Shown here in pieces: positions 16,905-34,571 of a DNA stretch of 64,000 nt (the stretch's first letter is position 1; each line of letters opens with the position of its first letter). Below the pieces are notes generated by a model that saw only the letters and a program-made list of their open reading frames with translations, made no database searches and was not told the origin of the DNA. The position numbers and the translations under genes are program-made. This stretch comes from Nibricoccus aquaticus (GTDB lineage Bacteria; Verrucomicrobiota; Verrucomicrobiia; Opitutales; Opitutaceae), in contig NZ_CP023344.1 of the NCBI RefSeq assembly GCF_002310495.1, forward strand, positions 992,001-1,056,000. The letters run 5' to 3'.

Positions 16905-16924
16905 CACTGGTCACTGGTCATTGG
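16905..16924. repeat. Interspersed repeat, family C (CACTGGTCATTGG)
   Basis: Reads CACTGGTCACTGGTCATTGG, a 7-10 base tandem motif. It lies 14 bases after the OppA-like stop and about 90 bases before the next start codon. Confidence 0.75.
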
Positions 16925-17513: not shown

Positions 17514-17545
17514 CTCTCTCAACTCTCAACCCTCAGCTCTCAACT
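17514..17545. repeat. Interspersed repeat, family D (CTCAACTCTCAACCCT)
   Basis: Reads CTCTCTCAACTCTCAACC, CTCAGCTCTCAACT. This intergenic copy lies just before the ATP-grasp gene. Copies of the same motif are inside the helicase gene at 32338, 33707 and 34011. Confidence 0.8.
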
Positions 17546-31856: not shown

Positions 31857-31885
31857 CCGTCCTTTGCGCCTTCGCGTCTTTGCGA
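31857..31885. repeat. Interspersed repeat, family H (CTTTGCGCCTTCGCG)
   Basis: CCGTCCTTTGCGCCTTCGCG, TCTTTGCGA, 29 bases before the helicase start. It resembles an intergenic repeat seen in several phyla (recollection, unverified). Confidence 0.65.
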
Positions 31886-31913: not shown

Positions 31914-34571
31914 ATGGACTTCGACCTCGATCAACGCACCGCCCGCCTGAGCGTCGGTGAGTTCTCCGAGTTCACCCTCGGCCCGCGCGATTCCACCGGC
32001 GGCCACTCCGGCATCTGGCGCGCCCAACTCGGCACCCACTGGCACAACCAGCTCCGCGCCCAGACCACTGCCGAGCGCAGCGACGCCCTCTTCGAAATCC
32101 CCATCACCGGCCGCGTCGTCCACCACGGTTGGACCCTCACGCTCACCGGCCGCATCGACCAGCTCATCCCGTCCGCCCAGGGCATCACGCTTCGCGAAAT
32201 CAAAACCGTCTCCCGCGAACTCCCCGCCGACGAATCCGAACTCCGCGCCGAGTACCCGTCCTACTTCATCCAGATCGCCACCTACTCCGCCCTCGCCCGC
32301 TTCGACCCCGCCGCCCTTCCGATCGCTCAAACCTCCGCTCTCAACTCTCAACCCACGGCCGCCCCGGCCGTGTCCGTCTCCGCCGAACTCCACTTCGTCG
32401 AAATCGCCTCCGGCCTCGCCCAAACCATCGGACTCACCTCCGCCGACGACGTCCTCTTCCACGCCCAACTCGCCCGCGTCTGCGAATTCCTCGACCTCCG
32501 CCACCGCGCCCGCGAACGCCTCCGCAACCTCCGCTTCCGCCCGCCCTTCACCGAACTCCGCGTCGGACAAGAAACCACCCAAGCCGACCTCGCCTCCGCC
32601 CTCGCGAAAAACCCCATCGTCCTCTTCGAAGCCCCCACCGGCTTCGGCAAAACCGGCGCCCTCCTCGAACTCGCCCTCACCCAACTCCGCTCCGGCCGCT
32701 GCGAACGCGTCCTCTACCTCACCAGCAAAGCCACCGGCCAGCTCCAGGTCATGCGCACCCTCGGCCTCATGACCGAGCCCACCGCAAACACGCAGGTGTC
32801 CGCCTCCGCCTTTCACCCTTCACACTTCACCCCTCACTCTTCCGGCGCGCAAAGCGCGCCCGTCACCGTCTGGCTGATACGCCCAAAACACGAACACTGC
32901 GTCAACACCGTCTTCCACTGCTCGCGCGACACCTGCGCCTACCTCAACGGTGCCGAATCCCGCTGGCCCAAAAGCGGCCTCGCCCGCTTCTACCTCCTGG
33001 AAAACGAACCCCGCGACATCGCCAGCCTCCGCGCCGCCGGCCGCGCCGCGCAAATCTGCCCCTACGAAATCACCCGCGCCGCCCTCCCCTTCAACGACGT
33101 CTGGATCGGCGACTACAACTACGTCTTTTCCCCCTCCACCCGCGGCCTCTTCTACGAACAACCCGGCTTCGACCCCGCCCGCACCCTCCTCGTCATCGAC
33201 GAAGCCCACAACCTCCCCTCCCGCGTCGCCGACGTCTACTCGCACACCTTTTCCGCCGCCGACGCCACCGCCCTCGCCGAGTCCCTGCACCAACTCCGCG
33301 CCCCGTCAAAACTCGTCCAGGCCGCCCAACACTGGGCCCACTTCCTCCACCAACTCCCCACCCGCGACACTCACACCCTCGCCGACGAAGACGACGCCCG
33401 CGAACTCCTCGCCACCCTAGCCGGCCTCATCACGACCACGCCGCTCGACACCCAAGAACTCCTTCAGCCAATCGCCGAGTTCCTCTGGCAGATCCCCGCC
33501 TGCCACGAAACTCTGAATACACACGACGTCCCCCGCCTCTGGTGGAGCCCCCGCCCCTCCGAACTCCACATCACCTGCCTCGACGCCGCCCCCGCCATCG
33601 CTCCCACCCTCCGCTGCTACAACGCCGTCCTCCTCGCCTCCGCCACCCTCTCCCCGACCGACACCTTCGCCACCGCCCTCGGCCTCGACACTCCACCCGC
33701 ATCCGTCCCTCAACCCTCAACTCTCAACTCTCAACAACCTCCGTCTCAGCTCGGCACCCTCAACAAACGCGCCACCAAAAAACTCTTCCAACAACTCACC
33801 TCCGCCGCCGACCTCCTGCGCGAAGAAGAAGCCCGCGAACAATCCCTCCCCGTCCTCGTCCACGCCCACGCCCCCTGGCGCGACCACGCCTTCGACGTCG
33901 CTATCGATACCCGCATCGACACCAGCTACCAACAACGCGCCCGCCACACCCCCACCACCGCCGCTACCCTCGCCACGCTCGTCTCCGCCTCACGCTCCCC
34001 ATCCGCCTCCGTCTCTCAACCCTCAACCCTCAACTCTCAACCCACTGCGCGCAGCGCCGTGTCTGCCTTCTTCCCGAGCTACGCCTACGCCGAAACCATC
34101 CAGCGCGAACTCACCACCACGTATCCGGAAATCCGAGTCGCTCTTCAGCCCCGCCTCCCCGACCTCGCCGCCCAAACCGCCTGGGTCGAGCAAGCCCTCG
34201 CCTCCTCCGACCTCCTCTTCCTCGTCCTCGGCAGCAGCTTCGCCGAAGGCATCGACCTCCTCGGCGGCCGCATCAGCCACGCCATGGTCGTCGGCCCCGC
34301 GCTCCCCGAAGTAAACGCCGTCCAACGCGCCCGCCTCGCCGTCTTTTCCTCTCTCGGTCGCGACGCCGCTGCCCAACGCGTCTACCAGATCCCCGGCATC
34401 CAAAAAGTGAACCAAGCCCTCGGCCGCCTGGTCCGCGCGCCCGGCCAACGCGCTAAAATCCTCCTCCACTGCCGCCGCTTCGCCGAAAAAACCTACCTCG
34501 ACCTCCTCGCCCCCGAGTACCGCTCGACCCATCTCATCGAGCACGACACCGACCTCACCGACTGGCTGTAA
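31914..34571 (+). CDS. RecB-nuclease-like plus DinG/XPD-type helicase fusion
   Basis: 885 residues. The N-terminal 180 contain PD-(D/E)XK nuclease features: LTLTGRIDQL, then LREIKTVS (E-x-K) and YFIQIATYSAL (QxxxY). The helicase has Walker A FEAPTGFGKTGAL (about 239-251), DEAH at VIDEAHNLPS (about 430), GRLVRAPGQR (motif VI, about 836) and four Cys consistent with a 4Fe-4S cluster (HEHCVNTVFHCSRDTCAYLN and QICPYEIT). This suits an XPD/DinG-like superfamily 2 helicase processing branched DNA. Four linkers (near residues 142, 299, 598 and 700) are encoded by short repeats. Confidence 0.87.
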   Translation: MDFDLDQRTARLSVGEFSEFTLGPRDSTGGHSGIWRAQLGTHWHNQLRAQTTAERSDALFEIPITGRVVHHGWTLTLTGRIDQLIPSAQGITLREIKTVSRELPADESELRAEYPSYFIQIATYSALARFDPAALPIAQTSALNSQPTAAPAVSVSAELHFVEIASGLAQTIGLTSADDVLFHAQLARVCEFLDLRHRARERLRNLRFRPPFTELRVGQETTQADLASALAKNPIVLFEAPTGFGKTGALLELALTQLRSGRCERVLYLTSKATGQLQVMRTLGLMTEPTANTQVSASAFHPSHFTPHSSGAQSAPVTVWLIRPKHEHCVNTVFHCSRDTCAYLNGAESRWPKSGLARFYLLENEPRDIASLRAAGRAAQICPYEITRAALPFNDVWIGDYNYVFSPSTRGLFYEQPGFDPARTLLVIDEAHNLPSRVADVYSHTFSAADATALAESLHQLRAPSKLVQAAQHWAHFLHQLPTRDTHTLADEDDARELLATLAGLITTTPLDTQELLQPIAEFLWQIPACHETLNTHDVPRLWWSPRPSELHITCLDAAPAIAPTLRCYNAVLLASATLSPTDTFATALGLDTPPASVPQPSTLNSQQPPSQLGTLNKRATKKLFQQLTSAADLLREEEAREQSLPVLVHAHAPWRDHAFDVAIDTRIDTSYQQRARHTPTTAATLATLVSASRSPSASVSQPSTLNSQPTARSAVSAFFPSYAYAETIQRELTTTYPEIRVALQPRLPDLAAQTAWVEQALASSDLLFLVLGSSFAEGIDLLGGRISHAMVVGPALPEVNAVQRARLAVFSSLGRDAAAQRVYQIPGIQKVNQALGRLVRAPGQRAKILLHCRRFAEKTYLDLLAPEYRSTHLIEHDTDLTDWL
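32338..32355. repeat. Family D repeat in helicase gene
   Basis: CTCTCAACTCTCAACCCA encodes the linker ALNSQPT at about residues 142-148. Confidence 0.75.
32810..32842. repeat. Family D-like repeat in helicase gene
   Basis: CTTTCACCCTTCACACTTCA, CCCCTCACTCTTC encodes FHPSHFTPHSS at about residues 300-310. A similar TTCACCCTTCTCACTTC occurs before recO near 31018. Confidence 0.65.
33707..33736. repeat. Family D repeat in helicase gene
   Basis: CCCTCAACCCTCAACTCTCA, ACTCTCAACA encodes PQPSTLNSQQ at about residues 598-608. Confidence 0.75.
34011..34044. repeat. Family D repeat in helicase gene
   Basis: GTCTCTCAACCCTCAACCCT, CAACTCTCAACCCA encodes SQPSTLNSQPT at about residues 700-711, almost the same peptide as the copy at 33707. 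Confidence 0.75.

Follow-up and report, generated by a model that had tools for sequence, protein, structure and literature searches.

Dispersed heptamer arrays, mostly of four units, in the genes of an Opitutaceae chromosome, with four of them in the linkers of a helicase

Four linkers of a helicase of Nibricoccus aquaticus are encoded by tandem heptamers, and this raises the question of whether the linker peptides are selected or the repeat DNA itself spreads. The gene lies in the window, that is, the whole stretch of 64 kb that was analysed (C1:992001-1056000), on a chromosome that is one contig of 4,730,447 bases. A sequence-only reading of the window had proposed that repeats colonise tolerant sites in coding DNA and make disordered linkers there. 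The present analysis largely supports that proposal and extends it to the whole chromosome and to related genomes.

The helicase gene (31914..34571; this and all features in this paragraph are on the plus strand) encodes an XPD/DinG-type protein of 885 aa, as judged by domain matches to Helicase_C_2 (4.3e-20) and DEAD_2 (1e-14); a PD-(D/E)XK match at aa 39-135 is weak and under its cut-off. Linker 1 (aa 143-147) is encoded by two CTCAACY units, CTCAACTCTCAAC, at 32340..32352, and a stem-loop with 8-bp arms and a 3-nt loop follows right after it (32354..32372, stem score 9.3). Linker 2 (aa 300-309) is encoded by TTCACCC TTCACAC TTCACCC CTCACTC (32812..32839), with the leader TCCGCCT on its 5' side (32805..32811) and the palindrome GGCGCGC-AAA-GCGCGCC, read from the sequence, on its 3' side (32844..32860). 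Linkers 3 (aa 599-607; 33709..33735) and 4 (aa 701-710; 34015..34041) are each encoded by four CTCAACY units. Linker 4 is preceded by the leader TCCGTCT (34008..34014) and linker 3 by TCCGTCC (33702..33708), which was read from the sequence as the leader with one mismatch. A further four-unit array, CTCAACT CTCAACC CTCAGCT CTCAACT, lies at 17518..17545 between co-directional called genes, and is the intergenic copy that had been noted at 17514. The motif had been counted three times in the helicase gene. An exact 20-mer is indeed present at 33709 and 34022, but the third site is only the two-unit piece at 32340-32352; similarly, the related motif reported near 32810 is a heptamer array, but one of different, TTCACCC-type units. 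The peptide PSTLNSQ occurs twice in the protein, as had been stated. When up to three mismatches were allowed, CTCAACCCTCAACTCTCAAC gave 8 overlapping matches in the window, at 17518-17544, 32326-32352, 33709-33735 and 34015-34041, whereas shuffled windows gave a mean of 0.01 (n=100) and never reached 8. Other repeats in the window are CAYTGGT heptamer arrays at 16905, 25232, 29113 and 29501, a ten-base tandem repeat of the ATTCGCGTCC type with GGTTAAAAA at its end (4535, 8577, 9696 and 26355), and a TTTGCG/TTCGCG repeat near 31862.

On the whole chromosome, CTCAACYCTCAAC has 84 matches (45 forward and 39 reverse), which merge into 46 arrays. With one mismatch allowed per unit, 43 of the 46 arrays have four units, and of the remaining three, one has three units and two have two. 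CTCAACC is found once among the first n-1 units of 32 arrays, twice in 8 and not at all in 6. The 7 bases on the 5' side of the 46 arrays have the consensus TCCGTCT, with C at -2 in all 46, C at -6 in 39, C at -5 in 36, T at -1 in 35, T at -3 in 33 and G at -4 in 28. The leader TCCGYCT precedes 17 arrays exactly and 10 with one mismatch (27/46 within one), and 19 have at least two mismatches; over all positions of the array strand the background is 0.07% for exact matches and 0.85% for one mismatch. In the converse search, sequence on the 3' side of TCCGYCT is strongly 7-periodic (at least 14 of 21 matches, cases that stand apart from the bulk of the distribution) in 34 of 627 instances on the C-rich strand vs 0 of 44 on the other strand. 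These followers include CTCAACY, TTCACCC-type and CTACTCG-type arrays, some of them double-counted in a shifted register. Nine control leaders had 0 to 9 periodic followers each, the maximum being 9 of 356 for CTCC[GA]CT. The unit order CTCAACT CTCAACC CTCAGCT CTCAACT was found four times at unrelated loci, and such recurring orders suggest copying of blocks more than slippage in place. We therefore lean towards the view that the arrays are a family of very small dispersed elements, 28-35 nt long, which consist of four heptamers mostly preceded by a leader and are copied as a block at the level of DNA.

Strong stem-loops were seen 1-2 bases 3' of the array at chromosome positions 2046036, 4465963, 43365 and 4652540 and at 32354 of the window. 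Stems of score at least 9 adjoin the right end in 5 of 46 arrays only (control, 1.1% at that score); a hairpin as the general right end was rejected, since the whole distribution was not above the control (p 0.94). The leader plus array is without terminal inverted repeats, and no target duplication, donor copy or enzyme for the copying was identified in this analysis.

The first alternative is that these are ordinary simple sequence repeats, which arose from chance seeds by polymerase slippage in place with 7 nt as the favoured step, and which share their sequence through skewed composition. Dominance of period 7 is in line with it. When 864 kb were scanned for tandem repeats with periods of 4-15, 40 arrays were found to have period 7 (20 of them CTCAACY), and besides these there were only three with period 9 and two with period 14. 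The sample is biased, because 25 of the 40 fetched stretches were picked for their CTCAACY content; the 15 stretches not so picked contain two period-7 arrays and otherwise only period 14, a multiple of 7. Slippage would also yield the range of the CAYTGGT arrays, which have from 2 to about 20 units (about 20 at 716875), and would suit the 19 arrays whose leader is missing or poor. In addition, the helicase genes of two relatives, L103 and L106, are 96% identical elsewhere and differ in the length of linker 2 by exactly 21 nt, that is, three units. On the other hand, slippage does not readily explain why CTCAACY arrays have four units nearly always or why their unit orders recur at unrelated loci, and an order-3 Markov control of the scan produced zero arrays. 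Thus, we consider slippage in place rather unlikely as the main origin of the CTCAACY arrays.

The arrays are strongly polar. All 46 CTCAACY arrays, including 10 of 10 intergenic ones, lie on the locally C-rich strand; 44 agree with their chromosome half and the other two are within a stretch of reversed skew. The skew is reversed over 1588-1608 kb, as a local inversion would produce. GC skew is otherwise very strong on this chromosome, with absolute values of 0.20-0.38 in 35 of 41 stretches (L112-L151 and the window), and its presence at third codon positions shows it to be a property of the strand rather than of genes alone. One intergenic CTCAACG-type array on the opposite strand is an exception. 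The CAYTGGT arrays, in which G outnumbers C, follow the same rule: 23 of 24 in the stretches are on the same strand, as are all of those among the matches listed (100 places, forming 27 arrays, to 1.92 Mb, the other 87 places being outside this listing). Base composition was rejected as the cause of the strand rule for CAYTGGT, because on a strand that is C-rich and mostly A-rich this unit is richer in G than in C and richer in T than in A. One parS-like site was found, at 2,155,199, and rplB is on the minus strand at 1.28 Mb; together these suggest an origin near 2.15 Mb, so that the C-rich strand is probably the lagging strand. However, dnaA (C1:31-1380) is at a distance of about 200 kb from the other skew switch, opposite to that with the only parS-like site, and so seems to be far from the origin; the lagging-strand assignment is therefore one that we only infer. 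A search of the chromosome for 16S rRNA gave no match.

A second genome, G003 (5,957,605 bases), was sampled in 20 stretches chosen for arrays. Its 44 CTCAACY arrays comprise 34 intergenic ones, 9 in genes in sense orientation and one antisense to a called gene (score 49). On the locally C-rich strand are 38 of the 44, in a local skew much weaker than that of the first genome. Four units are present in 27 of 44 and the leader is weaker. These counts indicate that the strand rule holds in a second genus and that the coding preference does not. More widely, of 100 genomes of the family 46 contain CTCAACYCTCAAC, a few of them in high numbers. Of 288 genomes of the phylum, 25 contain the three-unit pattern: 10 of 25 in the family (the present genome included), 0 of 18 in the order's other families, 12 of 51 elsewhere in the class and 3 of 194 in the others. 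Among the matches listed, 8 of the 12 class genomes have several overlapping matches at one place, and genome G111 has dispersed copies.

A strand rule common to two unrelated families, which extends to every intergenic CTCAACY array, would be expected if the arrays were polar chromosome signals comparable to Chi or FtsK-orienting sequences, kept on their strand by selection and forming protein linkers only as a by-product. We regard this as improbable, because there are only 46 CTCAACY arrays, several different sequences follow the same rule, and the rule is weaker in the second genome. Moreover, the polar signals that we know of are single short words, not blocks of four units.

Within the first genome, 36 of the 46 arrays are inside called genes and 10 are intergenic, which bears out the proposal that the repeats colonise coding DNA. 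Genes were called with our own script (666 genes, 84% coding), in which G and C are pooled at third positions; a first, codon-based caller was dropped because of its bias to C-ending genes. The C-rich strand holds more called coding bases, its genes accounting for 56 to 68% of them in stretches not chosen for arrays, a share that varies with the score cut-off. All 36 gene-borne arrays are in sense orientation and no array of the 46 overlaps a called gene of the opposite strand. The sense strand of the array is open in all frames, whereas the opposite strand has TGA in every frame; sense orientation within open frames is therefore forced and is not evidence by itself. As the arrays are both sense and on the C-rich strand, all 36 are in C-rich-strand genes. 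A called gene of L114 has a TTCACCC-type array in antisense orientation (901211). The cyclic peptide is the same in every sense frame, LNSQLST or LNPQPST depending on the type of unit, with mixtures in real arrays, and may be summarised as LNSQ[P/L]ST; the three frames are used 20, 11 and 5 times. The 30 host genes include those for MutS, MoeA, an asparagine-synthase-like enzyme, a PilB/GspE-type ATPase, a P-type ATPase, an ABC transporter and an alpha-rhamnosidase. Leaving out the helicase, 26 of 29 have a Pfam match, the others being L123:7222-8460, L124:7705-8811 and L136:11572-13965. Among the intergenic arrays, 8 of 10 are between co-directional genes and 7 of 10 precede a called start of the same direction by 13-69 nt. 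A role as regulatory arrays of RNA- or DNA-binding sites, as has been proposed for TAACTGA repeats upstream of start codons, would fit this last position and a cold-shock protein that is reported to bind heptamer repeats (PMC4679880), but is most improbable for a repeat of which 36 of 46 copies are within genes.

The helicase linkers allow DNA and peptide to be compared at the same site. The best 80 of 103 relatives, whose titles name Opitutaceae, Opitutia and other Verrucomicrobia, were aligned with the window protein (81 sequences). At the four places the linker of the relatives is either short or variable. CTCAACY-family DNA is also found at linker 4 of L033, L036, L038, L054, L068, L089 and L107. 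Unrelated heptamers occur at these linkers too, of the CATCACC type in L058 and L070, of the CAGAACC and GGGACCA types in L037 and of the TTTCAAC type in L065. In linkers of at least 30 nt, self-match is 0.385 at lag 7 vs 0.266 elsewhere and 0.363 at lag 14 vs 0.271 elsewhere; these are the only clear peaks, as the excess of 0.02-0.03 at lags 21 and 28 is not above that at several other lags. Arrays of lag 7 are present in the linkers of 21 of 81 sequences (16.8 kb of linker), with none at lags 4-6, 8-13, 15 and 18; outside the linkers (186 kb), arrays occur at lag 7 in 7 of 81 sequences, at lag 6 in 7 and at lag 12 in 11. In the LNSQ-type linkers of the orthologues and the window, Ser is encoded by TCA in 0.76 of 45 cases vs 0.06 over whole genes. 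In the present genome TCA (2.6 per thousand), TCT (2.9) and ACT (3.7) are all rare codons. Nine LNSQ-type hexapeptides in called genes gave 65 overlapping matches, all of which contain CTCAAC or CTCAGC, a mild criterion because CTC and AAC are also the commonest Leu and Asn codons. The refutation that the sequence-only reading had named, orthologues with the same linkers but different DNA, was not what we found, since LNSQ-type linkers of orthologues contain the same heptamer DNA and its rare codons. A 7-nt period built from several unrelated heptamers, together with the rare codons, argues that DNA spreads and not the peptide. Two other features of the linkers were observed. In linker 2, L058, L070 and L108 have inverted pairs of heptamer arrays that could form a hairpin in the coding sequence. 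L104 in linker 2, and also L038, L040, L041 and L074 in these linkers, have another recurring peptide (CHVLSDT, NVIRDE, CHLIGDT and similar), perhaps from another DNA repeat.

Arrays are accompanied by longer linkers. The median length with and without an array is 31 (4 sequences) vs 12 residues (76) in linker 1, 29 (13) vs 19 (67) in linker 2, 24 (3) vs 11 (66) in linker 3 and 25 (7) vs 7 (73) in linker 4. A comparison with orthologues for clean insertion sites had been suggested. The indication of clean insertion is indirect, in that array-bearing linkers are longer by a median of 10-19 aa and that L103 and L106 differ by the 21-nt step; this step is the nearest case to an empty site, of which no example at the nucleotide level was found among the relatives compared, none of which is close enough. 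In a predicted model of the helicase, made from 32 sequences (mean pLDDT 80.3), five segments have pLDDT <50. Three of them coincide with linkers 2, 3 and 4 (292-312, 599-613 and 700-710) and two are without an array (26-35 and 325-340); the linker 1 array is within a block, 141-150, with a mean pLDDT of 56. Thus, the four helicase sites combine low model confidence with variability among the 81 orthologues, in agreement with the tolerance that had been assumed for them, and the array-coded linkers are predicted to be disordered.

Six other host proteins were compared with solved structures, by one alignment each. The array falls in an unaligned or gapped place in the asparagine-synthase-like protein, MoeA and an HI0933-like flavoprotein, and the PilB-type ATPase has a 4-residue gap at its array. 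The P-type ATPase has two array sites, one with a 5-residue gap and one that is almost collinear. In MutS (L135:13375-15912) the array, in domain III, aligns collinearly with E. coli MutS apart from a one-residue gap, and there is no insert of array size. Among 17 MutS relatives recovered of 29 fetched, L154, L155 and L166 have CTCAACY-like DNA, partly degenerate, at this site, which in L173 and L176 is occupied by other heptamers, while the rest are mostly of about equal length and without heptamers. For the HI0933-like protein, 15 relatives were recovered of 29 fetched, and the array is in the present genome only. The hypothesis that LNSQPST linkers or heptads are selected as useful spacers, the likeness of DNA coming from codon use, could appeal to this MutS repeat, which fits a segment of unchanged length, and to the orthologues, several of which share the peptide at one and the same site of the helicase, but it is highly unlikely in view of the rare codons, the unrelated peptides that other heptamers encode at the same linkers in other relatives, and the existence of intergenic copies.

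Block copying of a small element, which we favour, may proceed as follows. The body would be mostly CTCAACT and CTCAACC, less often of the TTCACCC or CTACTCG type, with a leader near TCCGYCT in most copies. Copies of the whole block would arise at new sites through a process that acts on DNA and is coupled to the replication fork, the candidate routes being ectopic template switching and the action in trans of an unknown enzyme. Purifying selection would then eliminate copies that cause frameshifts, introduce stop codons or land in folded parts, and the surviving copies would be neutral linkers. Several observations count against this mechanism. The 21-nt step, which is the closest to an empty site, is also compatible with local expansion, and the MutS array and one P-type ATPase site hardly lengthen their proteins. 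In 19 of 46 arrays the leader is lacking or has two or more mismatches, and 9 periodic followers were also counted for CTCC[GA]CT, one of the control leaders. The missing enzyme, donor copy and target duplication weigh in the same direction, as do the strand exceptions (one CTCAACG-type array, one CAYTGGT array and 6 of 44 in G003), the antisense TTCACCC-type array, and the intergenic majority (34/44) and lower share of four-unit arrays (27/44) in G003.

Lying mostly in genes and on one strand, the arrays provide a natural experiment on the insertion tolerance of proteins. They also supply new linkers and offer a testable way to learn how heptamer repeats get copied. It is conceivable, but for the present doubtful, that they represent an undescribed class of tiny copy-and-paste DNA elements, in which several heptamers are repeated four times, often behind a common leader, oriented by the fork, open in frame and mainly genic, conserved genes included. 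A sense strand that is open in every frame would enable such an element to live mainly inside genes.

Heptamer arrays are known in cyanobacteria as STRR, and small dispersed repeats there are very small and apparently mobile. To our knowledge, a coding preference, a strand rule and a leader have not been described for either. Like the heptameric STRR and other simple sequence repeats of bacteria, the present arrays have a 7-nt tandem unit at many dispersed loci. The mainly intergenic location of such repeats is absent here (36/46 genic) and present in G003, while the variable unit number of slippage-prone repeats is absent in CTCAACY and present in CAYTGGT. The top-ranked literature matches contain no account of these repeats in Opitutaceae; the main text of PMC4060949 has neither 'Opitutus' nor 'heptamer' nor 'heptanucle', and PMC2996958 concerns a different, 25-residue repeat. 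Heptamer repeats are described as over-represented in bacteria and of no known origin or purpose in PMC4692102, which deals with the GGGNATC repeats of Xanthomonas and Nostoc. In Xanthomonas these are 89% (Xcc) or 93% (Xac) intergenic, their units form G-quadruplexes, and no leading- or lagging-strand preference is reported. The CTCAACY arrays resemble GGGNATC of Xanthomonas and Nostoc in the 7-nt unit, the dispersal and the clear preference for four units, and differ from the Xanthomonas repeats in being mostly genic, on one strand and with a leader in 27 of 46 (PMC4692102); none of the 46 arrays examined has four GGG runs. The TAACTGA repeats of Beggiatoaceae and cyanobacteria (PMC4679880) also have a 7-nt unit with stops one way and an open 7-residue peptide the other way. 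They are mostly intergenic, just upstream of start codons, and their open-orientation copies are in 11 genes, mostly at protein ends, whereas many CTCAACY copies are within conserved enzymes. The palindromic elements of Rickettsia (PMC2229807) are likewise small in-frame repeats tolerated in genes for conserved proteins, but they measure 105-146 bp and have terminal inverted repeats, unlike the present 28-35 nt without inverted ends. Thus, heptamer repeats in bacteria are already known, and what differs here is that they are mostly genic, lie on one strand and have a leader.
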